A DNA stretch of 64,000 nt, taken from Tubiluchus corallicola. Its lineage: Eukaryota > Priapulida > Priapulimorpha > Priapulimorphida > Tubiluchidae. Each line of letters starts with the position of its first letter. Position 1 is the stretch's first letter. The stretch is taken from positions 124,001 to 188,000 of the forward strand of contig JAQGDQ010000189.1 in assembly GCA_030141605.1 (NCBI GenBank), in the 5' to 3' direction. Shown in pieces: positions 27,890 to 62,374 of this stretch. Below the pieces are notes generated by a model. It had not been told where the DNA came from and made no database searches. It saw only the letters and a program-made list of their open reading frames with translations. Made by a program: the position numbers and the translations under genes.

Positions 27890-28031
27890 ATGGGTGATAC
27901 TAACAATCAACAACAGCAACCGTCATCGCCACCTCACAACGCAGACTACTTGGCTCAGTTGTTAAAAGACAGGAAACAAGTCGCTGCTTTTCCGAACGTT
28001 TTTCAGCATGTTGAACGAATTCTGGACGAAG
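27890..28031 (+). CDS. QKI: QKI coding exon 1 (Qua1)
   Basis: Start ATG 27890 ([20 protein letters not shown]...). The ATG at 27880 runs into a stop after five codons, so it is not the start. Donor gtgagt at 28032, phase 1. Followed by a 12.9 kb intron. Confidence 0.95.
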
Positions 28032-31000: not shown

Positions 31001-34000
31001 ATCTGACGGTAGACCTATCTTTACTAAGTGTTCTTACATCGGTTGTATCGCCTACTATCAGTTTATCGGCTGTACCTACTTGTGAAATGTAAATAGACCA
31101 ATCGCAGCTCTTTTACGACATATTTTGTTTGCTGTACATACTGCTTGGCAACTGGAGTGTATGTGCCCCACGCAGCCCCCACTTCGTTTCACTGTGCCCA
31201 CGCAGCCTCCACTTCGTTTCACTGTGTCCCCTTGCCCCACGCAACCCCCACTTCGTTTCACTGTGGCCCTTTGCCCCACGCAGCCCCCACTTCGTTTCAC
31301 TGTAGCCCCTTGTCCCACGCAGCCCCCGCTTCGTTTCACTGTGGCCCCCTTGCCCCACTTCGTTTCACTGTGCCCCACGCAGCCCTCACTTCGTTTCACT
31401 GTGGCCCCTTGCCCCACGCAGCCACCACTTCGTTTCACTGTAGCCCCTTGTCCCACGCAGCCCCCACTTCGTTTCACTGTGGCCCCTTGCCCCACGCAGC
31501 CCCCACTTCGTTTCACTGTGGCCCCCCTTGCCCCACGCAGCCCTCACATCGTTTCACTGTGGCCCCCTTGTCCCATGCAGCCCCTACTTCGTTTCACCGT
31601 GGCCCCCTTGTCCCACGCAGCCCCTACTTCGTTTCACCGTGGCCCCCTTGCCCCACGCAGCCCCCACTTCGTTTCACCGTGGCCCCACGCAGCCCCCACT
31701 TCGTTTCACCGTGTCCCCTTGCCCCATGCAGCCCCCACTTCGTTTCACCGTGCCCCGCTTGTCCCACGCAGCCCCTACTTCGTTTCACCGTGGCCCCCTT
31801 GCCCCACACAGCCCCCACTTCGTTTCACTATGGCCTATGACGGCGTAATATAACAGGCAAGAGACACAACCCTCCACCTGTTTTTACTCATTTATATTCA
31901 GAAATAAGCCTCTAAAAAGATTTAATTACACTCTCGTGTTCAAGAATATTAGGTTGATTTGGTAAATTATTTATCGTAATTATTAGTGCCACTGGCATAG
32001 CAATGTCTAGTTTTTTTCTGCGTTTAACCGTGTTAAGGACTGATTTTTTATTTTAAAGTTCTGTCTGCCTAATGTCTACAGTAGACGTAATAGGCTTGAT
32101 GATGATGATGGTGATGATGATGATGACGAGTGCTACTGTGTTCGTATGAAACTGACGCATGTGAGAACTGAATTGTAAAACGTTAAAAACAGTGTTTGAA
32201 TAGAGGATTTTTATTTTTTTTTCAATTTTAGATGTTACAATTTCTAAGTTATTATTTTGATATTGTGGGTTATCTTTAAATATCTGTCACCGTTTCAGTG
32301 TTATCTCCAATGAAGAAACTCTTATCTATGGCATATCATATCTCTTCACAAATAAGATTATGCAGAGGCTGACCACATGCCCCTAACTCTGGAAATCTCT
32401 AAACATTTGCTTGCCAAAAGTAGACTGTAGCCGTATCGAATTTCCGTGCTGTAGTCTGGTGTCTGTTGAAATAAGCGTGTTCATCCGAGGGTCTGGGTCA
32501 TAACGCGCAGCATGGGCTTATATTGCTTTATAGATGCTGAAAAACTTGAAAATCGTAACACACGTGGCTCCCATTAAACTAGATTTTCGCGTTTCTATGT
32601 GTGATTTATCATTTATGGTACGTTTTTACCATAGATGAGCTATGTCGGTCTTTCTCTCTCAACCTTCTCTCCCTTCTTTCCTCTGTGTGTGTGTTTGTGT
32701 GTGTGTGTGCGCGTGCGTGCATGTGTGTTTATTGTGTGTGTGTGTATGTATGCGTGCGTGTGTCCCCTCTACTTTCTCTCTCAATGTCTCTCTCTTCTCT
32801 CTCTCTCCCTCCCCTCCCCTGCCCTCTCTCTCTCTTCCACTCCCCCTCCCCCTGCTCTTTCTCTCCCCCCCTCTCTCTCTCTCTCTTTCTCTCTCCTCTC
32901 TCTCTCTCCTCTCTCTCTTTCTCTTCTTTCTCACTTTCTCCATCCGTCTCTATTTCTTTCTTCCCCTCATTTCTCTGTACTCCTCTATCCATGTTTGTCT
33001 CACTGGTTCTCTTTCATCAATGACATTCAGTGCCTCACACGTTAATGACTCAACTCTGACACTGTACTTTCCACTCCATACAATCAAGGCTGTTTACCTT
33101 GACTTTTATTATCCGATGCTATTATCTTGGCAATTTATATGCCAGAACAGATTTATTCTGCAACTGTGACTAGTAATAGACCCATAGATATAATATTTGT
33201 ATGACTGGCAGAGGGCAGCAAAACAAATGGCGGCAAAGCGGATAATATCTCGTACTTTTTAATAGGCGCTCGAGAAATGAATGTAAACAAATTTGCTCTG
33301 CACTTATCACGCGAAAGAGTATCAGTTTTTGAACACCCGGAAATGTTATCTGTTTCGAACCCGTAATTTTCTTAGTCTGCTGAAACGTTTTCGATGAAAT
33401 TATAGGCTATCAGCTCGTGTTGTACATACAGCCACCCCACAAACGTGAACACGAGGGGCAAGGACCGACGCAAAACAACTTTTCAACTCATCTGTAGGCT
33501 ATAATACATAGTAAAGGGTGCAGTCTAAAGGGGGTAAAAGGGAATGGGCGATTCGGGGGAGACAACATTCGGGGAATACCTGCTGTGAGTCAAAACAGTT
33601 AGCTAATCTTCACAGCATGAATCCCCGACTGCCCAGTGGTCAGACAGCGCGTGTGGTCGCCGTCGGTGGTCAGTAAAAAGGCCCTTGGTCAGTGACAGTT
33701 TGTGTGCGCTTTCGGTAACACATTTTTTGCGCAGAGACGCGACTGCCCAGTGATCAGAGACTTTCGGCCAGGGCGTCTGGTCACTGTGAGTGGTCAGTGG
33801 ACAAAGCCGTTGGTCAGTGACAGTTTGTGTGAGCTTGATACTGCAGATTTTTTACGCAGAGACGCTGTTTCTAGGCCAAACGTGTATTTATTTCAAATTG
33901 AAACATGTGTTTCTGGCTTTTCTTCCAACGTGGACTACTTTTTTCACACAGTTCACGCATTCAGCAGTGAATACTCTAGCACGCACATCAATTTCTTCAA

Positions 34001-40000: not shown

Positions 40001-43000
40001 AATTAAGACAGGATGATTTTTCGTATACTAATAAGATAATTGATATTGCAAATGTGTTTCTGATAATTGAATGATAGATTAAAAACTTAATTAACGGCCG
40101 GCGAGCCCAACTATTGATGACATCACAAACTAACATAATTTTCAACAGAAAAATGTTCCATGAGCGTGTTGCACATGTTTGTGAAAGGGAAAATTGAAGT
40201 ACAACACTACTGTGAGATATTCAGTGTGTTGTACTAAAACTAGGCAAGTTTTAAGATAAAAATATTCCGTGACTGTGTTACACGTGTTTGCGAATGAGAA
40301 AGATGCAGTGTGGAAATGATTAAATTCTTGAATAAACTTTTGAAACCCTTGAAAATTGAAGTACAGTGCTACTGTAAGATATTCAGTGTGTTGTACTAAA
40401 ACTAAGCAAGTTTTTTAAGATTAAAATTACAGGGTGTATTGCACAGCCTTTTTAAAAGCATGTCTTAATGCCTCGCAAACTTTTAAAACGCAGAAGTTAC
40501 TATTTAGTTATTAATCAGCCTACATGTATTCCATATTATGCACTAAGAATTTTCACAGTTCCAACGATTGATGGTGATTGTGAAAAGGTCAAAGCTTAAG
40601 TGCACCAGACAAGCGTTTATGTACAATTGACAACGCCTCGCAGTCCATGCTGTTGTAATAGTAAGAGTTTTAACAGCTAGCTAGAACTTTACCTAGTTCA
40701 TTTTTTTCTGTTCCCAAGCAAGATCCTGCTAGTAAATCACTTTACACATAGACTAATGCACAATTAAGTAAAGTCCACGTAAAACTGAAGTTACTGAACT
40801 GATGCAGTAGATGGCTTTGCTGAATTGTAGTTAACACGCATTGCTGTGGTACACTTAACCTTTGACCTACAGCAAACTGCGCATGCGCACAACGAAACTG
40901 TGAAAACGCTTAAACAGACAATGGTTATTAAGCAAACGATGTTTTCATTTCAGAAATCAACAAAGTTCGGCTCAGTTTATTTCACCTGAACGGCTCGGCA
41001 AATCAGGTTCCTCCGTTACCTGAAGCTAAAGGACCGGTCATCAGTTTGTCCGAGAAGGTCTTCGTGCCCGTCAGAGAACACCCAGACGTGAGTATTGGGG
41101 CCGTTGAAATGCGGACTGGGGCAGTGGGGCTATTCATAAACGGGGTGTGAATTTCACAGTATTGGGGCCGTTGAAATGCGGACTGGGGCAGTGGGGCTAT
41201 TCATAAACGGGGTGTGAATTTCACAGGTGAAACAGAAGCTGTAAAAAGACAAAGAAAAATATCATTAGAGATGGTATTAGACTACATCCTCACAGTAGTT
41301 GCAAAACAGTGGTGTTAGCTTAATCAAGCTATCTTAATTTTACATACTATTAACAAATAATAGTCTTTCTATCTTTTATATCATCCCATATATGAGCTTC
41401 ATTCATTACATCATTCCATTTTAACCACTAATGTTTTTTTATCACGATTCAGTTTAAATTCTCAGATTATTTCCATTATTTTTTTTCTGTCACTGTGTGG
41501 GACAATCTAACAAGCCCTGCTTTTTGATTGTCCGCAACACATTTACCTTCGTATATTAGTGAACAGTGTTTGAGGCTTTTCCTGTGCAGTATTTCTCATT
41601 TGTATTATGTTCATTGTAGGCCCTTTCACTAGATATTGTACATGAAACTTTTGTAAATGTGTAATGTGAAATAAATGACTAAATGACTATTTTATAACAA
41701 AATGTCATAAATGTTTTGTGCTGGAGAAATCGTCTAACTTTACCAGCAAATAATTTATCTACGTAAATGATTACGTAAATTATACATTTGCTTTGAAACT
41801 ATTTTATTTTCTGAGTTCTAATGCCGATCTTTTAAAATTTACATGCATAAGAATTGCCCAACCCAGGTGTCAGGTAATGAAACAGAAGATTAAAATTTTG
41901 GTGAAAGGCGTGCCATTTCAGTCAGAAAAAATGGGTCGAGTACGACTTTTGTTTTAAGAACAGTTGCCAAACTAAAACAACAAATTTTGACGTGTAATCT
42001 AAATTGCGAAAGTCGCTGGTTCAAATACAGGCGCAATAACAATTCTCAGTTTTTGTGTGTTTGCCATTTCGGAGCAATAAGTAAAAAAAATTGTTTTTTT
42101 TTCACAAATTTGTTGACTAATTTGCTGGAGATATGGATTATTTTTGTTCAGTACAGTAGCGCTATCCTTTGGTTTAAATAATATTTTATTAAACATTACA
42201 ATCATAACTACATATATATATATATATATATATAATAATCTTTATTTGCCATTAAAATACAATGATAATCACTGAATAAAAACTTTACAGAGAGGATCAA
42301 TCAGTGTTAGTTAATAAAAATTTACACTGCTAAAGGCACTTATAATAAGCACATTGGGCAATTAATCAAACGCTGAGCAGGTATAACCTATATAAAAGCT
42401 TTTCAAAGAGTAGATACGTCATTTATAAGTTCCATAGGCACACGATTATAGAAATTGTTAGTTATTCTACAGGTCAGAATGAGATTAAGCAAGTTACGTA
42501 ACTTGTTTGTTGAATAGCAGGTGTGCGAAATGGTGTTACAAGTTGATTATGACGTGTTTGATGTTGATGTTAAGCTACAAAAATAGAACGAGTGATGAAG
42601 AAGCTAATGAAAGAAAGATGAAAGTGTTGGGTTCACGGGAACGCAAAAATATAAATAATTTGCCCTGTAAGGTAGAATTCAGAGATTTTAATATACTATA
42701 GATTTAATTTTATTAATTTCAAAACCCACTTTGTATAAAGTGCATTTATACTAGAGAGTGGTATTATGGATATGATTTGGAGTGAGTGCATTTATACTAG
42801 AGAGTGGTATTATGGATATGATTTGGAGTGAGTGCATTTATACTAGAGAGTGGTATTATGGATATGATTTGGAGTGAGTGCATTTATACTAGAGAGTAGT
42901 ATTATGGATATGATTTGGAGTGAGTGCATTTATACTAGAGATATCCTTTCATCTGGTCCAGGCTGTACTATCTACTAATGGCATTTTCGGGTCAGTTCAA

Positions 43001-46000
43001 CGGTTTTCCAGAAGCCATCAAATGAAACCGGATATCCTGTGCTGAAGCCCTTTAATTTGAAGTGCTGCTGCTGCTTTTCGTGTTCGGAGTCTCTGAAACT
43101 AAATAAAATTCGCCTCCGCTTTGATTTGGGAAACCAATTTGCTGGATTTAGCCCCTCCGTGTGTTAACCCGTGTTAGTTTGTTTAACTTATGTTTTAAAG
43201 TTTTCCTTGAGGCTGCCAGGCACTGTTGGTTTTACCGTAATGTATTTATGTAAGTCTGCAAGTGAAATGTGGACGTGTTCACCTTTACACTGTTCTAATG
43301 TCAGAGCAACAGGCGTACAACTTGTCTCTAAATATTTATGCCAATCTGGTGCTTATTTTATTTAGCGTGATCATAATTCACTTTACTTTGTAGAAAATCA
43401 CACGGTATCGTGTTTTCATATTTTTTGTCATATGTTTGCTTGTTTTTGTCTATCGTATGTTTTCATGTTTTTATCATGTTTGTGTGTTTCTTGTCATATG
43501 TTTCTTTATCGTATGTTTGCGTGTTTCTTATAATGTTTCATGTTTTTATCATATGTTTGTGTATTTTTTATCATGTTTCTTTATCATATGTTTGCGTGTT
43601 TCTTATAATGTTTCATGTTTGTGTCATATGTTTTCGTGTTTTTATCATATGTTTGCATGTTTCTTATCGTATGTTTCTTATTTTTGACATATGTTTGCAT
43701 GTTTTTATTATATGTTTTCATGTTTTTGTCATATGTTTGCATGTTTCTTATCATATGTTTCTTACTTTTGACATATGTTTCCATGTTTTTATCATACGTT
43801 TTCATATTTTTATCATATGTTTGCATGTTTCTTATCATATGTTTCATGTTTTTGTCTCATGTTTTCATGGTTTATCATATGTTTTCATGTTTTTATCATA
43901 TGTTTGCGTGTTTCTTATCATATGTTTTGTGTTTTTGTCACATGTTTTCATGGTTTTATCATATGTTTCGTGTTCTTATCATATGTTTTCATGTTTTTAT
44001 CATATGTTTTCATGTTTCTTATCACATGTTTTATGTTTTTATCACGTTTGCAGTCTCAGTGAATACTATGTTTAGACCTATGTTTATAATATTAGACATT
44101 TGGATGTTCCCGAACTCTCACGAATAATTAGGAAATAATGCAAAAGAAAAATTACTTACATATGTAACAAAAGTTGCAAAATGAAGAAAGACTTTTTCAT
44201 TGTTGTGTAATGATTTTGTTATCTGTCAATGGAGAATATAGTAAAGCTTTACACTTCCAAACACTCTCTTTTTCCCGTACAAAGTAACCACTAATACTGC
44301 CTATTGAGAAATTTCACTACTTTCTGTTCTAGTTCAACTTTGTGGGCAGAATCCTCGGTCCCAGAGGCATGACAGCGAAGCAGCTAGAACAAGACACCGG
44401 CTGCAAGATCATGGTACGAGGTAAAGGTTCCATGAGAGATAAAAAGAAGGTAAGGACCTCCGTAGTTCTTATTACACAAATGAGATGTATTACTCGAGAA
44501 CAGTGGTAGCGACTCGTAGCTAAAATTAGTGCAAATGCTGCTTCTGAAATTTTTTAGCTATTGTTTTAATACTGTGTAAAATGAAACTAACATACGTCAT
44601 TTTAATGTTTGTATTTTGTATTTTTAAACAAACAAACACGAAAGTTTATACATGATAAAATCCTGAACAACAATACTAATAGTGTAAATTGTTGCAGTTT
44701 AAGCTTGATACATTCACTGTAAGCACATGACAACTGTCAACAAACTGTGTGAGTGGCAGTACTTTTTCTACCTGGGTTCAGACATGTGCACATAGCCTTA
44801 TGCGCACAACAGCCAAACACCGCATTGCTGGAAGCGCAGTGTGCTGGGCTGTGAAGCAAACAGTACTACCTTCATGTGCTCTGGTTCTTTACAAATAAAA
44901 GAAAGAACTAAAGAAAAGAAACTTATTATATTGAATATTATCGATAATATTGAGTAAAAATAGTGGGTACTGCAGTACCACAGTAGCTATACACGAGCTG
45001 CCACTCCTCGAGACATTTAAGCAAATTTAAGCAGTTCTCGGCATCAACCATCTCAAATTTTTCACTATTCGCTTACAGAATTTTATTAGTAAAGAAAATC
45101 TTTATAGGATTAGCCCAATTCCTAGCTAACATAATTAAAATTAAGCTCCCGCTCCAGTAAAACGAGTTTTGGCAAAATTCGTACTTTTTCTTTCGTGCTC
45201 GACTTAAGCACGCTCATTTTAAAACTTAAACATGATCAGTGGAAACTCATTTAATACTTAAACCCTGCAACTTTCTTAACATTTCCAAGAGAATGACTGA
45301 CCGTTGTTGCTATTCACTGTCCCTCTTGTGTCATTTCACTCTGTTGTTAAAAAACTCATGAGTTTACGGCTTTCTAGCCATTATGTATGTATATTTTCGA
45401 GAATGGATGAGTATTTATTACTAACCAGCTTATAACTGTTTATAGTGTGCTAATGAATAGGCATTTCCTTACAACTTATGCTTATGATTTCTGTGTGAGC
45501 TATTTGCCGTGTGTAGAAAATTAACTCATTTATTTACAATATTGTTTTCAAGAAATTATAGAAAATGGTTAATGTTCTTTTAAAAAACATATATAAACCG
45601 AGTTTTTAACTTGTTGTAACTGTTTGTTATCCGTGTTTCATATTGCTAGGTATTTTATTTGTTCACGTCTTTGAATCTGCTAATTGTATCCTACAGGAGG
45701 AAATGAATAAGGGGAAGGCAAACTGGGAGCACTTGAACGAGGAGCTACATGTTCTGATAACCGTAGAAGACACACAGGAGAGAGCCGTTGTCAAACTCAA
45801 ACGAGCCGTGGAGTGCATAAACCAACTGCTAGTACCAGCAGTAAGTACAACATAGCATTGTTAAGCAAAGTTGTAAATGTAGCTACTGCTAGTTTTAGCA
45901 GTAAGTACAACATAGCATTGTCAAGCGAAGTCGTAAACGTAGCTACTGCTAATTTCAACAGTAAGTATAACGTAGCATTGTTAAGCAAAGTCGTAAACGT

Positions 46001-49000
46001 AGTTACTGCTAGTTTCAGCAGTAATTACAACATATCAATGTTAAGCGAAGTCGTAAACGTAGCTACTGCTAGTTTCAGCAGTAAGTACAACGTAGCAATG
46101 TTAAGCGAAGTCGTAAACGTAGCTACTGCTAGTTTCAGCAGTAAGTACAACGTAGCAATGTTAAGCGAAGTCGTAAACGTAGCTACTGCTAGTTTCAGCA
46201 GTAAGTACAACGTAGCATTGTCAAGCGAAGTCGTAAACGTAGCTACTGCTAGTTTCAGCAGTAAGTACAACATAGCATTGTAAAGCGAAGTCGTAAACGT
46301 AGCTACTGCTAGTTTCAGCAGTAAGTACAACATAGCATTGTTAAGCGAAGTCGTAAACGTAGCTTCTGCTAGTTTCAGCAGTAAGTACAACGTAGCATTG
46401 TCAAGCGAAGTCGTAGACGTAGCTACTGCTAGTTTCAGCAGTAAGTACAACGTAGCATTGTTAAGCGAAGTCGTAAACGTAGCTTCTGCTAGTTTCAGCA
46501 GTAAGTACAACGTAGCATTGTTAAGCGAAGTCGCAAAAGTAGCTACTGCTAGTTTCAGCAGTAAATACAACGTAGCATTGTCAAGCGAAGTCGTAAACGT
46601 AGTTACTGCTAGTTTCAGCAGTAAGTACAACGTGGCATTGTTAAATGGCAAACTTAATTACTGCTGTAAAATTAACAATTGTATGACTTCATTAAATGAT
46701 CATAGATGTAAAACAATTTCCCAGTTGCAAGAAAGGTGTTGGAGTCGAACCAGCGAAGCATTAGCTTCATTATAGAAACTGCTTATTTGTTTTTTATCCT
46801 GTTTTGTGATGAAATGAAGATGTTCTTGTGACTATCCTTGTTCTGCATTAAAATTTGCATCTTGTTCTGCATCTACATAGAGGTGGCTGACTCGATGACC
46901 TCCTGGTCTTTCGCCACCCCATCTCTACATACTTTACACAATTTGTTGTATTTGCGCTATAAATATTATATTAGAGATGAATAAAACCTTTGAATTGAAT
47001 TGAATTGAATTGAAAAATTTGAATCTTCACCAGCAAATGGGTGAACATTTTTAATGTTTTACATCGTTGAGGAGGGAAATAATCGGTTGAATTATGATTC
47101 GTTGCCAAATTAGTTCTCATTGTTAATTAAGGTTTATAATAATTTAATCACTTCCTTTCCTATGTTTTGTTCAAGCCGTTATCAGGAAGCACACTTATTG
47201 CCATTTAAATAATACTTCATCTCCACTTTCTCTTCCATAACTTGCGATTGATTAATGATCTTGCTTAGATTTCGTAGTTTTGGGTCGAGCAGGCATGAAT
47301 GCGTCGTTTGTCACCTGTGGTTCCGCTTGCCTGTCCGAGCAAAACCCACCTATCGTTAGGTCACCAGTGTTGTGAAACACTGCTGGATTCTGGGTCACAC
47401 ACTTTGTCCACGCCCACGGTAGCTTGTAATTGGGATGTTGGAATATTTGCCGATTACTTTTCCCTCTGCGTAGGGAAACCCATCCAACCTTTCCAGTTTT
47501 TGCCATAGACATGGACATAGAACATTTATTTTCTCCAATAAGTTTAACATCAAAAGTTTTTTAAATATTAAGTAATTATAATCATGGAGCAGGGCAGAGA
47601 AGGACCATAGGGTCATCTAGTCTCCTGCCCTTTCTTATAAATAGATTAGTATATTAAAAATTAACCGTGATGCTGCAGATCAAACAAAAACAAGTAAGAA
47701 AAAAATAATAATAAAAACAGCATAAATGATACAAATTATCAAAAAAGAACTGAAAACAAAAAATAATAAAGTTAGGTACGTAAATCTAAACAAAACAATA
47801 CAATTATTCAGTAATCAGGATTATCATATGTAGTAGTTTCAAATGGGGTCTTATTAACAGGCGAATTTGACCAAGGTTAGTGAGTAAAGTTAAAAAACTG
47901 AGAGTATGGAAAGATGTGGAAAAAAGTGTAATATAGAAAAATTTATGAGAAAAAGTGAGTATGAGAAAGAGCAACAATTGCTTAGGAGATGAGGAGAAAA
48001 AAGAAAAAAAAACTTGCTAGCTTGCTTATTAGTTTTACAAGTTATTGCCAACTTGACAATTCATTTTTTTATATTTATTTATTATTATTATCACATTCAG
48101 TACAAAGTAATGACATTAAGCACACAGTGATATCGAAATTATCACATCTACTGTATCAAATTGTTGTTTCATATACTTTCTTTATCAGAATAATTTTATA
48201 CACTTAAAAGAATAATTGTACTGCAGTGGGCTAGAGAAGCAAAGACTTGTATAAGCCCACTGTCATGTGAACCCGATAAAAAAAGAATGGATGAGTGAAC
48301 AAAAAAAGAGAACTGGGAGAAATGTTAGATCACACAGGCAGGGTAGAAGGATGTGTTAGTGGAAATGGTAGGAAGAAAGATAATACATTCATGGGCAATT
48401 GTTATGCCAGCCGTTAAATGGAGACGTTCTATTATAAATTCCCCGTGTAGGTTTGAGCGATGTTTCGCCTCGGGTTGGGATACCAAACTATACTTATAAA
48501 ACGATTTGTTAAATAGTAATAAAAGGATGAGGTTTTGCCCCGCGGAAACGAAGTTGGCGAATGATTAAGATTAATTAGCGCTTGTCGCAGGAGAGTCTAC
48601 TAACTTGTGAATTTCATGCTGTAGCTGCAGGTTTAATCTAAGACGTGGAATTTTTATTTTTCATCATGTGGCGTAGTAAAGTTTATGAATGTTGAAAAAT
48701 GACAGTTATGACGACAGTCTGTTTATTTTCTTATTGTAGTTTGTGTCAGTTTCCTGTTTCATGAATCGTTTCTCTTCGAATATCTTTAGCCGTCTGTCAC
48801 CTGTTTAAAAAATAGTATTTTGTTCAGTAAGCCTTTTCACAGCTCCAGTGATTGATGATGATCGTGAAAAAGGTCAAAGGTTAAGCGTACCACACAAGCA
48901 TTTGGGTACACTTGACAACGCTTCGCAGCCCATGCTGTTGTAATAGTAACGATTTCAACAGCTAGCTGGAACCTTGCCTAGTTCATTTTTTCTTGTTCTC

Positions 49001-52000: not shown

Positions 52001-55000
52001 ATTTTATTGAGTTTCTTTGCCTAAGGTGATTTTATACCTATATGTAATAGTTTTTGCAACATAGGTATATACATTTTTCACATTTTTCACTATTATAAAG
52101 GCCGATGGTCCGCATTTACGGACGCATGTAGGAGTTCATATAGATTTTACGATTGCCGTAAAAATTTTATGAAGACCTCAAACATAAGTTCATTGCACCA
52201 ATTTGGCCATTAGAAAATGCCATAGTTATTTGAAATTACCGTATTTACCATCATCTGATTGCTTGGTGATCAGATCCTTCTGGGTCAGCAATAAGAGTAA
52301 TAATTACGATCAATATTTCATCGGTCTTTCAAGTAGTTCGGTTCAACATTAAATGTTTACCAAGTTCAATTGACCGTGCCAACTTGTTGACAAAGAATGA
52401 TGAGGTATTGCTCAGTAGCAGGTATGCACAGGTATGGTAGCTGATTTCACAGGTACGCGCACACCTGGAATTTCGCTCGTCCTCGCATCGGTGACTTCGG
52501 GTAGCTCTCTTGCTGACCCACCGACAAAGTTGAATAGCCATTTGTGAGAAACTATGGCCAGCTCCCAGACTGATAACATCTTTCTTACCTCAGAATGCAT
52601 TGTCTTCCAGGCATATGTAGTCAATAGGTAGTTTAAACATAATTTATTATAGGATTGGATCAGACAGTTTGAACAACATGATTTAGAATCCTCACCACAA
52701 CAGACTATATACACTATTTACAAGAACATTTACAGTAAGAATTGACTATAACTACACAAGCTGACAAGTTTTACTACAAGATTACATTAGGTATTAGTAA
52801 CATTTACAGTAAGAAAAGACTATAACTACACAAGCTGATAAGTTTTACTACAAAATTATATTAGACATTGGTAGAAAATGACGGTTAGAAAATATTAATG
52901 TACGAATATTTAAGACTGATGCATTTTATATCAGATAGAAACTACTGGAAGCGTTTAGTACGTAATATAAAGTCATGTATGCATTGGAATATTTTACAGT
53001 TAGCAACATAGTTAAATTCATCTTTTCCGAATAATAACAATTTCAACAGATCATTAGTTCTTAAGGCAGCTATATTGAGGTTTTCGGGCAGAAGCATTTC
53101 ATTTAATTTATGAAACGTAACAAACATAGTCAATAGTTTCCACACTAAGCCCAAATGAAGAGCAGAACTTGTTCATAAGGCTTTAAATTCCGTAAGCAAC
53201 TTACATGAGTTACGTTTAGTTTATTGACAAACAACGCAAAACAAAATACAATACAATATACATAAAAAATCACACGTCACGCAAGCTTCACATCACTTTG
53301 GCACAATCATTATAATTATTGAAACAGCAAAAGAAACAGTAGAGCTTAAACAGGAAATAATATTAACATGTTTACAAAATGATATAATTACAATGTGCTT
53401 TTGCTATCAATTCGATATGATTTTCTACGACTCGGATATTATTTTCTTCTTTTGAAACAATCCGTAATATAGTTTAATATTAAATTTGCAAGTTTGCTTT
53501 CATTTCCATTCTTCAGAAATATAAATTTTTCCTGCACCGTAGGATTAATAAAGTTTGGAAAAATTTCATTGACATGAGAGAACGGGCTCCGTCTTAAATC
53601 ATTATGATAGTTACATTCAAGAATTACATGCATTTCAGTATCAATTTTTTGATCTTTACAAAAATGGCGTAGTCTGTTGTCAAGGGGGGTTTTACATTTG
53701 TCTTACATGGCGGAGTGCCATCACCACAGGGACTAAGACAGCAGAGGCGAAAAGAATTGAGGAGGCAGAGGAGAAGCGCAGGAGACGCAAGGCATGTGAC
53801 ACTGCCCAACAACAGGTCCAAACACCCAGCCTCACCTGTGCCAAATGCCAAAGACGTTTCCAGGCCAGAATTGGTCTAGTCAGTCACCTTCGAGCTCATC
53901 AAAGGAATGACAACCCCCCAAACTGACCTTTTATCCCTGTCACTATGGTCATCTTCGATTCGAAGGACGAACATCACATGCGTGTATGACTTTTTAATCC
54001 TGTTGATCAGAAATTTATTGTTGCCTGTCATCAACTTGTTTCGTTGTAAAAGAAATAGATAACTCGCTTTACAGGCGTATAAACTTGAAGTCAAGGATGT
54101 CTGTTCTTTCTTTGAATTGTCTTGCTCATTTTCTTCTTCTATAAACATGTTAACTAGTATCGTTTATGGTTCATTTAAAGTCTGAAGATTTTATATCACA
54201 GATAAGAATTTTTATTGTGCCACCAGTAAAGCTTACGTGGCTGTTTCTTAAGAAAACCGCGTGTACGTGCCACCAATCTCTGTTTCGTGTATTGTTAACC
54301 AACTTTAGCAGCAAGTGTCATGGTCCCGGCGGCCATGTTTGGTGAGACGAACGTTTTAGCTAAATTTGGTTTCTGTGAAAAGGCTCTTCTTTTCATGGCC
54401 AAACTGCAATACCACATTTTCAAATTTAAATTCTTGTCTAATATTGGTAAAAATTTGATGATTTTTTGTTGCGTCTGCTTGCGCAGGGAAGATGCCTACC
54501 ATTGGGTAAGCTGTGGTTAGGTTGTGACGTACGTGATAGCTGTGTTCGATTGCCGTTAATTAGCTTTCCAGGGTAATTATTCAGATATAAGAAATAATTG
54601 TTAACTTTTATAGGCAGGAAAATGTATATTTTGAACAGTAAATTAAAATCAGATTGAGTTTAATCAATCGTCTGGTTTTCCTTTAATGATAACTTTATTT
54701 GCTTTTTTTATTGGCCACTTCAGATTTTGCCAACAATTGCTTTATTCAAGGTTGGACACATTTGAAAGTAAATGTAATTTTCTCCAACCTGTCCATAACT
54801 GATGAGAAAATGATTGAGATGTCTTTTGTTCTGGAAAAATCAAGTTACAAATTTGTAAAAAAGTTCTCTTGCTTAAACGAGGCGCGTGCTTTTGCAGTAA
54901 AAATGATTTTGATGCTATGGCCGTATTTTTATTAGATGTTATCGTAAAGAATAAGTTGTCGCTTCCGTCAATCGTTCGTGGAAACCGTGTCGTAAATTTG

Positions 55001-61000: not shown

Positions 61001-62374
61001 CCATGCCCGAGGCATTTTACTGAGCGATTTTGCATTTATTTCACTATACGAGATAAAGAAGAACGGTCCCAGAACCAAACCTTGTGATCCTCCCACTGGA
61101 CAAAATATGAATGGCAGTGGTTATCACAGCAAACGGCCACACAACCCTCGGGCATCCAACTTGTGAAACACAAAGCATTGTCTTTCGGTGGGGATTATTC
61201 ATTCTCATGAGATATGTAATAATGGAATCGCTTCAGGCAGACCCAATTGTTGTGCTAATAGGCATGAGCAATGATGTGCTTGGTGATGGTGCCTAGGAAT
61301 GTAAGAAAAATGCTGGGATGGGACAGATAATATTCAAGAACCTGTTGAAAGCGCTTGCCCTATTTCTCAAGCTTAATGGACGAAAAGCCGCTCTCTCTGA
61401 AACGTAAAGCTATTATTACTTGACACCGAAACTCGTACTTAGCATGTTAACTATGTTAATTCTCCCTGCAGGTGCTGAAAATTGTAAAACGTGTGAATTT
61501 ATTTAAATAATGTTAAAATGATTCGTTTGAAAATGTTTGCCTTGTGCTAACAATGCTTACGACTTTCAGATTTTTTTAAATCAAGAATTAAGTTATTTTA
61601 AGAAAAACGAATGTTTTTGATCTATAAATAAGCTTCTACATAGTTGTTTATAGATCTGTTTTTTGAAAGTTCGTTTTATGTTTGATTGTACAAATCCACA
61701 ATAAAACTTTGATACTGCATTCGAAAGAAGGGGAATTTTAAAACTTGGGACACCATCTGTATTTGAACCAGGACCTTTACTTTAACTTGCAATGTGTTTT
61801 GTAAGCCAAATATCTCTGGTTCAAATATGAACTGTGTTCTCCTTTTCACATTTTCTGTCTTTGGTGTAAAAATTTATTTAATTGTGGTTTTTATACACAC
61901 ACTTGCTCGTGCATCGCACAACTTCTCACCATTGCAGGAGTTGGTCATTATAATTGTTGGTCATTATAAGCTCACCAGACATTGGCTAATAGCTGGCAGC
62001 ATATTTGTGACAGTGCAGCATGTTATAACTCATTTCTTTTTGTGACAGTGCAGCATGTTATAACTCATTTCTTTTTGTGACAGTGCAGCATGTTATAACT
62101 CATTTCTTTTTGTGACATTGCAGCATGTTATAACTCATTTTTTGTGACAGTGCAGCATGTTATAACTCATTTCTTTTCGTGACAGTGCAGCGTGTTATAA
62201 CTCATTTCTTTTTGTGACATTGCAGCATGTTATAACTAGTTTGTTTTTGTTTTTTGCAGCCGGACGGTGAGGACGATCTGAAGAAATCGCAGTTGATGGA
62301 ACTGGCTATAATGAATGGAACATTCAGAGATACAAGTGGTACCACGCAGACACCGCAAAAGCTGACCCAGCAGC
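27890..62374 (+). CDS. QKI: QKI/HOW STAR-family KH RNA-binding protein (5' part, gene runs off window)
   Basis: Quaking/HOW proteins dimerise and bind ACUAAY plus UAAY in RNA, controlling splicing, mRNA export and stability. Coding exons 27890-28031, 40954-41087, 44333-44449, 45697-45840 and 62260-62374 join in frame to 652 nt (217 codons plus one base). Qua1 is at about residues 18-60 ([20 protein letters not shown]...VERILDEEINKVR). Glu48, at the position whose loss disrupts dimerisation in mouse, is present and split by intron 1. The KH domain starts near 82 ([20 protein letters not shown]) with GPRG loop at 101-104, then [17 protein letters not shown] and [19 protein letters not shown]. 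Qua2 begins with [19 protein letters not shown]. It is closest to insect HOW in memory comparison. The C-terminal exons are outside the window. Confidence 0.96.
28032..30600. other. QKI intron 1, 5' part: nothing recognised
   Basis: AT-rich intronic sequence. Short open frames (for example 29227-29454 and 29880-30182) show no family similarity or splice support. A perfect 12-bp palindrome of six C then six G occurs near 30370. Confidence 0.5.
30608..30785 (-). mobile_element. non-LTR 3' end repeat (family T), copy 2, QKI intron 1
   Basis: Same block as 1568-1880: TTTATTTCACTGCAGCAATA through AGTTGCTGTGTGACACCTTG. Confidence 0.55.
31160..31845 (+). repeat. GC-rich minisatellite of about 39-bp units, QKI intron 1
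   Basis: About 18 units built from CACGCAGCCCCCACTTCGTT and TCACTGTGGCCCCTTG. Strongly C-rich on +, so the - strand has repeated runs of four or more G. Long open frames on both strands are a by-product of periodicity. Confidence 0.9.
32650..33010 (+). repeat. TG then CT/CCT microsatellite, QKI intron 1
   Basis: TG-rich run (32685-32765) followed by a long CT-rich tract to about 33010. Purine-free stretches make the overlapping open frames artefactual. Confidence 0.9.
33627..33868 (+). repeat. 114-bp tandem duplication, QKI intron 1
   Basis: GACTGCCCAGTGGTCAG at 33627 and GACTGCCCAGTGATCAG at 33741. Both halves share TTGGTCAGTGACAGTTTGTG and a GCAGAGACG end. Many GGTCAGT motifs. Confidence 0.8.
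34190..34705 (-). repeat. Repeat F copy 4, QKI intron 1
   Basis: Reverse-oriented (CGAATGCTCTGATTG, TTAAAATGGCTGTG). Its inner block CCCAATGTGCACCACTGATT is duplicated at about 34270 and 34490. Confidence 0.55.
35954..36555. mobile_element. MITE-C, complete copy, QKI intron 1
   Basis: 602 bp with inverted ends AGGAAGACAGG / CCGGTTTTCCT and TTAA flanks (35950-35953, 36556-36559). Contains TGACGTCA at 36106-36113. Shares terminal sequence with MITE-B but has a different interior. Other copies at about 40005, 50903 and 63286. Confidence 0.8.
37136..37475 (-). mobile_element. MITE-A copy 4, truncated, QKI intron 1
   Basis: Starts AAGCCTTTTCGCCGTTTCGT and shares the AGGTCAAAAGTTAAG block. About 100 bp of unrelated sequence (37275-37375) interrupts it. 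The far end is lost where MITE-B sequence begins. Confidence 0.65.
37476..37815 (+). mobile_element. MITE-B partial copy, QKI intron 1
   Basis: Shares the central and right parts with 21837-22314, including TGACGTCA at 37528-37535, and ends CCTGTTTTCCTCTAA. Its left part is missing where it joins MITE-A copy 4. Confidence 0.7.
38299..38570 (+). mobile_element. tRNA-derived SINE, full copy, QKI intron 1
   Basis: Same head, body and tail order as 12055-12360: ACCAGACGGTTTAGTC start, GAGTTCGATAC box B, GACCCAAAAGCCGACTTTAA near the 3' end, then ATT/GTT repeats. Confidence 0.85.
39335..39560 (+). repeat. 57-bp minisatellite, 4 copies, QKI intron 1
   Basis: Units start GTCACGGCACTTTTTATGT at 39335, 39391, 39448 and 39506 and contain AACTTTAGAACCTGGCTACG. 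Confidence 0.88.
40005..40440. mobile_element. MITE-C rearranged copy, QKI intron 1
   Basis: Left part resembles 35954 onward (GACAGGATGATTTTTCGTAT). An internal block around GTGTTGTACTAAAACTA is duplicated at about 40230 and 40395. Right end lost. Confidence 0.65.
40546..40911 (+). mobile_element. MITE-A copy 5, next to QKI exon 2
   Basis: Ends at 40911, 42 bp before exon 2. Carries the perfect palindrome TGCGCATGCGCA (40878-40889) and the inverted DR1 TAACCTTTGACCT (40856-40868). Confidence 0.75.
40954..41087 (+). CDS. QKI: QKI coding exon 2 (Qua1/KH linker)
   Basis: Residues 48-92. Acceptor catttcag ending at 40953, donor gtgagt at 41088. Encodes [14 protein letters not shown]...[22 protein letters not shown] copy ends 42 bp upstream, and a 67-bp tandem duplication begins inside the donor region. 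Confidence 0.95.
41091..41224 (+). repeat. 67-bp tandem duplication at QKI exon 2 donor
   Basis: The unit starts at 41091, inside the donor (gtgAGTATTGGGG), and repeats exactly at 41158. Confidence 0.9.
42235..42560 (-). pseudogene. LINE 3' end relic, QKI intron 2
   Basis: Minus-strand remnant with [20 protein letters not shown], which resembles the RVxNxWNxLPxxVV region of jockey/CR1-type ORF2 C-termini. A 3' UTR and a TA-repeat tail follow (42210-42235). Confidence 0.5.
42740..42950 (+). repeat. 46-bp minisatellite, about 4.5 copies, QKI intron 2
   Basis: Near-identical units beginning GTGCATTTATACTAGAGAG at 42740, 42786, 42832, 42878 and 42924. Confidence 0.92.
43400..44050 (+). repeat. 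CATATG-rich minisatellite, QKI intron 2
   Basis: Degenerate units of about 20-25 bp, TTTTTATCATATGTTTGCATG. Around two dozen CATATG-like palindromes. Long hydrophobic open frames are periodicity artefacts. Ends about 280 bp before the KH-core exon. Confidence 0.88.
44333..44449 (+). CDS. QKI: QKI coding exon 3 (KH core, GPRG loop)
   Basis: Residues 93-131. Acceptor ctgttctag ending at 44332, donor gtaagg at 44450. Encodes [20 protein letters not shown] and [16 protein letters not shown], the RNA-contacting part of the STAR KH domain. Confidence 0.97.
44450..45696. other. QKI intron 3: no recognised element
   Basis: 1.25 kb of AT-rich sequence between the two KH-encoding exons, with no repeat or gene that I recognise. 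Confidence 0.5.
45697..45840 (+). CDS. QKI: QKI coding exon 4 (KH C-terminal half)
   Basis: Residues 132-179. Acceptor tcctacag ending at 45696, donor gtaagt at 45841. Encodes [20 protein letters not shown] and [20 protein letters not shown]. The last 16 nt of the exon and the donor are the first member of a 60-bp tandem array. Reading through the donor gives VSTT and then TAG. Confidence 0.96.
45825..46645 (+). repeat. 60-bp tandem array of the QKI exon 4 / intron 4 junction
   Basis: The unit boundary recurs exactly every 60 bp from 45841 to 46621 (13 full units and a part). Each carries CTGCTAGTTTCAGCA followed by GTAAGTACAAC, homologous to the real junction CTGCTAGTACCAGCA|GTAAGTACAAC. 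GTAAGT is intact at 12 of 14 positions (GTAATT at 46021, GTAAAT at 46561). Confidence 0.95.
46865..47018 (+). mobile_element. non-LTR 3' tail with GAATT repeats, QKI intron 4
   Basis: Ends GATGAATAAAACCTTTGAAT followed by four TTGAA pentamers, the form of a LINE or SINE 3' tail. The family is not identified. Confidence 0.45.
48829..49306 (+). mobile_element. MITE-A copy 6, QKI intron 4
   Basis: Starts AAGCCTTTTCACAGCTCCAG. AGGTCAAAGGTTA at 48871-48883 and TGACCTTTGACCT at 49252-49264, the latter a perfect inverted DR1 (AGGTCA-A-AGGTCA). An internal block of about 95 bp is tandemly duplicated. Confidence 0.75.
49770..50480 (+). repeat. Tandem duplication of about 125 bp with nested MITE-P
   Basis: CATTGACTCTGTTGCTTGAG and AAATTCATCGCC...GAATTGTCCGG recur. 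One copy is split by the piggyBac-type MITE, and the other keeps a single TTAA. Confidence 0.8.
49815..50270. mobile_element. piggyBac-type MITE-P copy 2, QKI intron 4
   Basis: 456 bp, closely similar to the copy at 5444-5900 and in the same orientation. Flanked by TTAA at 49811-49814 and 50271-50274. An uninterrupted tandem paralogue of the target, with a single TTAA, is present near 50390-50400. Confidence 0.87.
50903..51500. mobile_element. MITE-C copy, QKI intron 4
   Basis: Near full length (AGGAAGAAGG to GAGTTTTGGTTTAA) with decayed ends. The CRE-like site has become TGACATCA. Confidence 0.7.
51588..51880 (-). mobile_element. non-LTR 3' end repeat (family T), copy 3, QKI intron 4
   Basis: Begins with TCAA repeats (51580-51610), then TTTATTTCACTCCAGCAATA and the shared block. 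Contains GGTTAGGGTTAG-like stretches near 51786. Confidence 0.6.
52724..52875 (+). repeat. 76-bp tandem duplication, QKI intron 4
   Basis: ACATTTACAGTAAGAA and GACTATAACTACACAAGCTG occur twice, about 76 bp apart. Confidence 0.82.
52942..53180 (-). pseudogene. LINE ORF2 C-terminus relic, QKI intron 4
   Basis: Minus strand, open to a stop at 52942: [20 protein letters not shown]...[15 protein letters not shown]. The KLLLFG...IFxxIxxFIxxTKRF ending is typical of non-LTR ORF2 C-termini. 5' truncated. Confidence 0.6.
53210..53690 (-). pseudogene. second LINE ORF2 C-terminus relic
   Basis: Minus strand: [20 protein letters not shown] and [13 protein letters not shown] (about 53570-53680) match the C...ExHxLLECxxYNxLR motif of non-LTR ORF2. 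Continues to a stop near 53439, then a 3' UTR to about 53215. Truncated at 53690 where another element begins. Confidence 0.65.
53708..53926 (+). pseudogene. LINE ORF2 C-terminus with C2H2 finger, 5' truncated
   Basis: Plus strand, 72 codons plus [23 protein letters not shown], a run of RRRRK, then [20 protein letters not shown] with the C-x2-C...H-x3-H zinc finger, ending RNDNPPN. This WR-x-basic-finger arrangement is seen at the end of several invertebrate LINE proteins. The 3' UTR (TTCGATTCGAAGGACGAAC) runs to about 53975. Confidence 0.65.
54480..54682 (+). mobile_element. MITE-B partial copy, QKI intron 4
   Basis: Right part of the family, ending CTGGTTTTCCTTTAA with TTAA at 54683-54686. 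The upstream stretch 54312-54480 may be a diverged left part. Confidence 0.6.
55139..55846 (-). mobile_element. MITE-D copy, QKI intron 4
   Basis: Ends CTCCCTCAGTGCAG and GCAGTGCTAAAGGAG, next to TTAA at the left. Interior matches the copies at 12714 and 22655. Confidence 0.72.
56728..57072 (+). repeat. 93-bp minisatellite, about 3.7 copies, QKI intron 4
   Basis: Units start near TTGCTTTATTTCAGTAAAT or TCGTGCTTTATTTCAATAAA and contain ACTAATTATTAATATATGAT. Confidence 0.88.
57553..59834. repeat. Long inverted repeat (arms about 315 bp), QKI intron 4
   Basis: Left arm 57553-57866 and right arm 59517-59834 are reverse complements (AACAACAATCAGTCGTAAAA / TTTTACGACTGATTGTTGTT). A second, inner inverted pair lies at about 57885-57965 and 58615-58695 (CCTCATCAGCTG / CAGCTGGTGAGG). 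Probably a DNA transposon with long terminal repeats and a nested element; no transposase recognised. Confidence 0.8.
58235..58420 (+). repeat. Tandem duplication of about 90 bp inside the inverted repeat
   Basis: AACTGATGAAAATGTAATGT and CACTTATCTGGAGGAGGAC occur twice. Confidence 0.8.
59840..61450 (-). pseudogene. Possible decayed retroelement coding sequence, QKI intron 4
   Basis: Minus strand 60701-61096 is open for 131 aa and contains [20 protein letters not shown], which loosely recalls the PQGSVLGPLLF motif of non-LTR reverse transcriptases. The catalytic YADD box is not visible downstream. Further minus-strand fragments at 60240-60560 are Lys-rich and interrupted. Family not recognised. 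Confidence 0.3.
62015..62259 (+). repeat. 35-bp tandem array ending in the QKI exon 5 acceptor
   Basis: GCAG recurs, ending at 62018, 62053, 62088, 62123, 62155, 62190, 62225 and 62259 (the real acceptor). Each unit has GTTATAACTCAT, TTTCTTTTTGTGACAGT and GCAG, so each resembles a branch point, pyrimidine tract and AG. Confidence 0.93.
62260..62374 (+). CDS. QKI: QKI coding exon 5 (Qua2 start)
   Basis: Residues 180-217 plus one base. Acceptor ttttttgcag ending at 62259, donor gtaagt at 62375. Encodes [20 protein letters not shown] (Qua2) and a Thr/Gln-rich stretch. The acceptor is the last, in-register unit of a 35-bp array. Downstream exons are beyond the window. Confidence 0.95.

Follow-up and report, generated by a model that had tools for sequence, protein, structure and literature searches.

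A 60-bp ladder of donor sites across the exon 4/intron 4 junction of a QKI gene is probably a mirage-type minisatellite

Tandem repeats that run across exon-intron boundaries are called mirages, a name tied to the lancelet Adh3 gene and extended, in the accessible parts of two papers, to lancelet globins (PMC3087553) and to TnC and PGBD5 (PMC3902484). Repeat units of 10 to 72 bp are given there for Adh3, of 60 and 108 bp for PGBD5, and of 150 to 160 bp for the globins BflGb6 and BflGb9 (PMC3087553, PMC3902484); the length of the Adh3 mirage is described as variable (PMC3087553). The same portions of these papers report that lancelet mirages do not disturb splicing (PMC3087553, PMC3902484), and the globin paper adds that mirage copies could serve as cryptic sites (PMC3087553). 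Here we analyse a stretch of 64,000 nucleotides of contig JAQGDQ010000189.1 (the window), in which a QKI/STAR gene carries a 60-bp array of donor sites (45825..46645, plus strand) at the end of its exon 4. Like the lancelet mirages, the QKI array spans an exon-intron boundary, with 16 exonic nt in its first unit, its units carry splice signals, and arrays are found at both a 5′ (exon 4 donor) and a 3′ (exon 5 acceptor) boundary. QKI goes unmentioned among the lancelet mirage genes in the accessible text of PMC3087553 and PMC3902484, and none of the papers listed in a literature search with the term quaking is on such an array, as judged by titles and the starts of abstracts, with most subscription papers outside reach. 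We regard it as highly probable that the QKI ladder is a mirage-type minisatellite derived from a tandem duplication, that it is near-neutral and spliced mostly at its exon side, and that it is not a purpose-built switch.

The gene was placed by tblastn with a human QKI-5 sequence as the query, and its exons 1 to 5, all on the plus strand, were then read in the sequence. Exon 4 (45697..45840; 144 nt; also recovered by genome search) encodes the second part of the KH domain and ends with LLVPA in phase 0 before the exon-side donor GTAAGT at 45841..45846. Exon 5 (62260..62374; 3′ end predicted from sequence only) carries what we take to be part of QUA2, and the intron that separates the two measures 16,419 nt, in agreement with the 16 kb given by the original prediction. 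That prediction had also described about 14 tandem donors with a period of 60, of which the first consists of the last 16 exon bases plus GTAAGT, and Tandem Repeats Finder agrees (45825-46644, period 60, 13.7 copies, 93% matches, 0% indels). Laid out in register, the array is composed of 13 full 60-bp units and one 41-nt unit, and the repeat unit spans the exon border with 16 exonic and 44 intronic nt. The predicted counts of perfect donors and of the CAGCA-like sequence before them were both reproduced: GTAAGT is exact in 12 of the 14 units (GTAATT in unit 4 and GTAAAT in unit 13), GT itself is kept in all 14, and CAGCA precedes the donor in 12 (TAGCA in unit 2 and CAACA in unit 3), with the first unit reading CAGCA/GTAAGT (the slash marks the border). 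When exon 4 is read past its first donor, the translation continues as LLVPAVSTT and stops at a TAG that all 13 distal donors would include, so that use of any of them is predicted to truncate the protein ahead of exon 5, as in the in-frame poison extension first proposed. When the 343.5-Mb assembly was searched at the DNA level, the QKI array was returned at one place only, though this search skips common words and leaves rarity unproven. An assembly artefact or collapsed repeat might be suspected, as there is a single assembly and repeats are error-prone; we judge this very unlikely, given that the units vary by single changes in a mosaic pattern, with only units 5 and 6 mutually identical, and that other loci hold similar arrays built of other units.

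The donors within the array were not found to be kept better than the sequence that surrounds them. In the QKI array, 2 of 84 cells of the donor hexamer were changed versus 33 of 737 elsewhere in the unit (Fisher P = 0.28), and the omission of unit 1 gave 2 of 78 versus 27 of 683 (P = 0.41). An equally large share of units was kept perfect by 15 of 55 six-column windows, the donor's own included. When four fixed-period arrays (QKI and the PDCL3, MROH, and zinc finger arrays described below, each without its first unit) were pooled, 19 of 480 hexamer cells were changed versus 69 of 2434 (P = 0.92 in a test for better retention); changed cells are not independent, as units share changes through copying, and the selection of arrays for containing donors biases the comparison toward keeping, yet still none was seen. 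As the hexamer shows no better retention than the remaining columns of the unit, these data suggest that the distal donors matter little. The eight CpG columns of the QKI array (106 of its 821 cells) hold 10 of the 35 changed cells, and CpG losses account for four of the six differences of unit 1, which appear to be the ordinary decay of an edge unit.

These results bear on a regulatory explanation, in which the array would act as a splicing rheostat: U1 would be contested among the donors, and unit number would determine what share of QKI transcripts is truncated or targeted to nonsense-mediated decay, perhaps under QKI autoregulation. U1 pairing is predicted at -7.0 kcal/mol for the real donor and ten distal donors, at -7.5 kcal/mol for unit 3, and at -1.9 kcal/mol for units 4 and 13. 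In favour of the competition for U1 put forward in the original prediction, pairing in 11 of the 13 distal donors is no less stable than in the real one; in addition, the in-frame TAG follows from every distal donor, and a stop follows from all seven upstream acceptor AGs tested at the other end of the intron. A regulatory or tuning role is nevertheless not supported. Apart from the lack of extra conservation of GTAAGT, a paralog of the gene has no array at the corresponding junctions, the same structure is present at unrelated genes, and published mirages are reported without splicing disturbance, and we consider a rheostat quite improbable. In a second U1-based explanation, telescripting, itself a known phenomenon, the ladder would recruit U1 and thereby protect the long intron against premature polyadenylation. 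With its 14 donor-like sites, the first part of this 16.4-kb intron would suit it; nonetheless, the donors show no extra conservation, and we give this explanation very little credence.

With respect to donor choice, the exon-side donor at 45841 is most likely the one used, as the paralog has its junction at the same position. Since predicted pairing with U1 is equal for so many units, the core motif cannot select the first donor; the choice could instead be made through exon definition, with a 144-nt exon beside a 16-kb intron. Local structure perhaps helps. An inverted repeat (ACTGCT...AGCAGT, 45825..45842, plus strand) lies over the real donor and is predicted to form a hairpin of -7.6 kcal/mol in 32-nt windows (shuffle P = 0.003), as compared with -12.4 kcal/mol in units 5 and 11 (the windows folded for these two do not differ); stronger hairpins over distal donors may thereby favour the exon side. 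Splicing would then mostly join the exon-side donor to the exon-side acceptor, and the distal choices, which would lengthen exon 4 by steps to 924 nt at most, would yield rare transcripts ending at VSTT. The undisturbed splicing reported for lancelets, together with the shared geometry, fits this use of the exon-side donor in QKI.

The 3′ end of the same intron was found to carry an array of its own. A 35-bp acceptor ladder (62004..62259, plus strand; 62004-62250 by Tandem Repeats Finder) comprises six upstream units in register, which resemble GCATGTTATAACTCATTTCTTTTTGTGACAGTGCA with small changes and of which one is 3 nt shorter, and a last, diverged copy (62225-62259) that constitutes the actual acceptor region of exon 5. 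This region aligns to the 35-bp unit with a score of 16, reached by none of 5000 shuffles, compared with scores of -2, -1, and -3 for the 35 intronic nt that immediately precede exons 2, 3, and 4, respectively. All seven upstream acceptor AGs tested run into a stop when joined in phase to exon 4. Thus, both splice sites of the 16.4-kb intron 4 belong to arrays, and this laddering at both ends of one QKI intron is new. Across the gene, array edges (arrays of period at least 20 and at least 1.8 copies, 8.4% of the window) were located within 16 nt of three of the nine QKI splice sites and within 10 nt of two (circular-shift P = 0.0013 and P = 0.01, respectively), with the end of exon 1 placed 1 nt too low in this test; for arrays of at least three copies, edges were within 16 nt of two of the nine (P = 0.008). 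Three of the nine sites were in arrays or within 10 nt of one (P = 0.06), and one was strictly inside (P = 0.48). Because the thresholds were picked after the arrays had been seen, the excess of array edges at splice sites is only a hint.

The paralog mentioned above, a second QKI gene (C2286) with protein identities of 81% for exon 4 and 96% over 23 residues for exon 5, was informative as to origin. Its exon 4 junction follows the same alanine (GCT/GTGAGT), and no array was found at its exon 4 or exon 5 junctions. The two exon copies, QKI exon 4 and its counterpart in the paralog, both have TACC where the array units have TTTC (TTTT in unit 2), and for this reason the exon would represent the older state and the array the derived one. 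We propose that the minisatellite arose by tandem duplication of a segment across the exon 4/intron 4 junction and that it then grew and homogenised through unequal exchange or slippage, being near-neutral. Coding constraint on the exon copy, in which TACC is retained as in the paralog, would hold the outer edge of the array in place. We also considered whether the unit is homologous to exon sequence upstream of 45825 and rejected this, as 3881 of 5000 shuffles align equally well. A different origin is offered by the model of Rogers, in which introns are gained via tandem duplication of AGGT (PMC4974935, from the part of the paper that is accessible), so that the array would have made the intron. 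The QKI locus resembles this model in that a tandem duplication copies a splice signal, and AG/GT unit borders do occur in several other ladders, such as that of the MROH-like gene (36 exonic nt in the unit). The QKI border, however, reads AGCA/GT and not AG/GT, and, since the paralog has an intron at the same place with no array at the junction, the QKI intron predates the array; for QKI this origin is contradicted, and we rate its probability as close to nil.

To place the QKI array in its genomic context, ladders were counted in the assembly against those of reversed motifs; matches overlap inside arrays, so the counts are not independent. Ladders of CAGGTAAGT (three exact, period 24 to 54) gave 159+221 matches versus 20+9 for the reversed motif (380 versus 29, the latter forming five arrays), ladders of CAGGTGAGT gave 76+65 versus 8+10, and ladders of period 55 to 85 gave 101+172 versus 24+6, with double steps of shorter arrays recounted. 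Single CAGGTAAGT motifs numbered 5472 versus 2250 reversed; per motif, the enrichment is about fourfold if extrapolated to some 46 arrays, and there is none if it is derived from the 12 places among the first 100 matches listed. Acceptor-type ladders of TTTTCAGG gave 127 versus 35 matches, the 100 listed being dominated by a few arrays. Bare GTAAGT triples were hardly over-represented (8695+9479 versus 8004+9235 reversed), and many of the 100 matches listed were GTAA microsatellites.

Twenty-three other array places were then read. They are the 12 places made up by the 100 listed matches of CAGGTAAGT; 10 of the 12 places made up by the 100 listed matches of CAGGTGAGT, C1517 and the second C555 place being left out; and C9, chosen for the spacing of its single motifs. 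Classed by our judgement from open frames, five lie on a recognisable exon, four (L049, L051, L052, and L056) are at unnamed open frames ending at the junction, two (L038 and L057) are just past an exon-like frame, three (L040, L043, and L046) are unclassified, and the other nine showed no exon in the upstream sequence read (400-450 nt). The recognisable exons belong to the following genes: (i) a PDCL3-like gene (L005 1522-3118, minus strand), with 33-bp x 48.5 units and CAG/GTAAGT at the exon end, whose two exons joined match PDB 7nvm_P (E = 1.8e-20) and in which read-through of the first donor meets TAA immediately; (ii) an SLC1/EAAT transporter (L047 1531-2553), with 54-bp x 19 units at the exon end (PDB 5llu_A, E = 7.1e-19; Pfam SDF, 2.8e-15); (iii) a Maestro-HEAT (MROH-like) gene (L050, minus strand), with 39-bp x 11.9 units at an exon (Pfam 7.7e-5, below its cut-off), the exon frame being open through the first units (VSRHQENPFPITQ) and inverted copies following the array; (iv) a C2H2 zinc finger gene (Pfam 5e-15); and (v) a DSP phosphatase (Pfam 4.9e-12). 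The exonic nt repeated with the donor number 26, 14, 36, 12, and 22-23, respectively, and 13, 7, 18, and 30 in the four unnamed candidates, which had no Pfam match over the cut-off. As read from the assembly, donor ladders thus seem to straddle the exon ends of five recognisable genes and four candidates in one genome, which is new. Among the named ladders (QKI, L005, L047, L050, L055, and L058), all but one have a period that is a multiple of 3 (60, 33, 54, 39, and 81, the exception being 23), a post hoc pattern that is weak once the four unnamed candidates join. Copies of a dispersed minisatellite family with 30-bp units (GTAAGTTTGGTACTAGTAAGTTTGATACAG-like) were also seen on several contigs (L044, L045, and L057). 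In a small sample of 30 Sushi loci, of which several overlap and several lie within long single-exon frames, no array of at least three copies was near the edge of a Sushi match, and two 2-copy arrays were about 20-30 nt off (L033 and L034).

Several points weigh against a near-neutral minisatellite spliced at its exon side. First, we infer the use of the exon-side donor, and predicted U1 pairing gives that donor no edge, as ten units equal its -7.0 kcal/mol and unit 3 exceeds it. Second, the conservation tests are of modest power (14 units, four pooled arrays), with arrays picked for their donors. Third, the donor hexamer contains every changed cell of the MROH-like array (6 of 60 cells versus 0 of 330 outside); these comprise at least three different changes, with C or G at +6 in several units and GTTAGC in one, which hints that selection may at times act against distal donors. 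Fourth, array edges are commoner at QKI splice sites (P = 0.0013) than chance placement predicts, unless exon pinning explains this. A broader reading would take the ladders as a genome-wide class, with both ends of QKI intron 4 laddered, hairpins over distal donors (units 5 and 11) that could hide them from U1, and a copy-number instability that would turn the arrays into unstable rheostats. We hold this to be unlikely; if true, the genome would provide a natural set of almost identical donors, spaced at constant intervals, on which spliceosome choice could be measured.

Choice among 5′ splice sites has classically been tested with two artificial copies. The QKI array, with 12 of 14 donors of near-identical predicted U1 pairing at 60-nt steps, is a natural test series, and the PDCL3-like gene, with about 48 units at 33-nt steps, is a second. 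RNA-seq on such arrays would reveal how the probability that a donor is used depends on distance, and how a genome tolerates many decoys. By analogy with published mirages, the number of units likely varies between individuals.

The remaining exons of the QKI gene, on the plus strand and also placed by tblastn and sequence, are exon 1 (matched part, 27908..28031, with a Pfam STAR dimer match), exon 2 (40954..41087), and exon 3 (44333..44449, the first KH part; Pfam KH_1). A 67-bp x 2.0 tandem duplication of identical copies (41091..41226, plus strand) begins 3 nt into intron 2 and does not copy the donor GT. Elsewhere in the window, a C-rich minisatellite of 39-40 bp (31167-31835) has frames open on both strands, giving long repeat open reading frames without gene evidence, and an open frame at 53573-53926, presumably a retroelement tail, ends with a zinc-finger-like motif. 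No RNA family was found in the 64-kb window at the gathering threshold.

Among other known systems, recursive (ratchet) splice sites have an acceptor adjoining a donor as pyrimidines-CAG/GTAAGT. Units of some of the other arrays read in this way, unlike those of QKI, which read TTTCAGCA/GTAAGT, such that acceptor and donor are not adjacent. The QKI locus also departs from the model of Rogers, in that its unit border lacks AG/GT and its intron is older than the array. In the accessible part of a human study, minisatellites with units of 30 bp on average are described at exon-intron boundaries in segmental duplications, with 27 intron modifications that have transcript support, in recent paralogs (PMC2812944); in QKI, by comparison, the intron predates the array and the gene is conserved. 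The minisatellites reported near alternative splicing in Caenorhabditis elegans are, from what is accessible of that paper, other repeats (PMC4039745). The lancelet mirages remain the closest relatives, from which the present case differs in that arrays are found at both ends of one intron and in several genes of one genome, with splicing predicted. A search for the GFP family, of which lancelets carry members, gave no match, but neither did any control genome. Mirages have been reported gene by gene in lancelets, whereas here such ladders occur at several unrelated genes of one assembly, and, should the host fall outside the lancelets, this kind of repeat reaches a new group.

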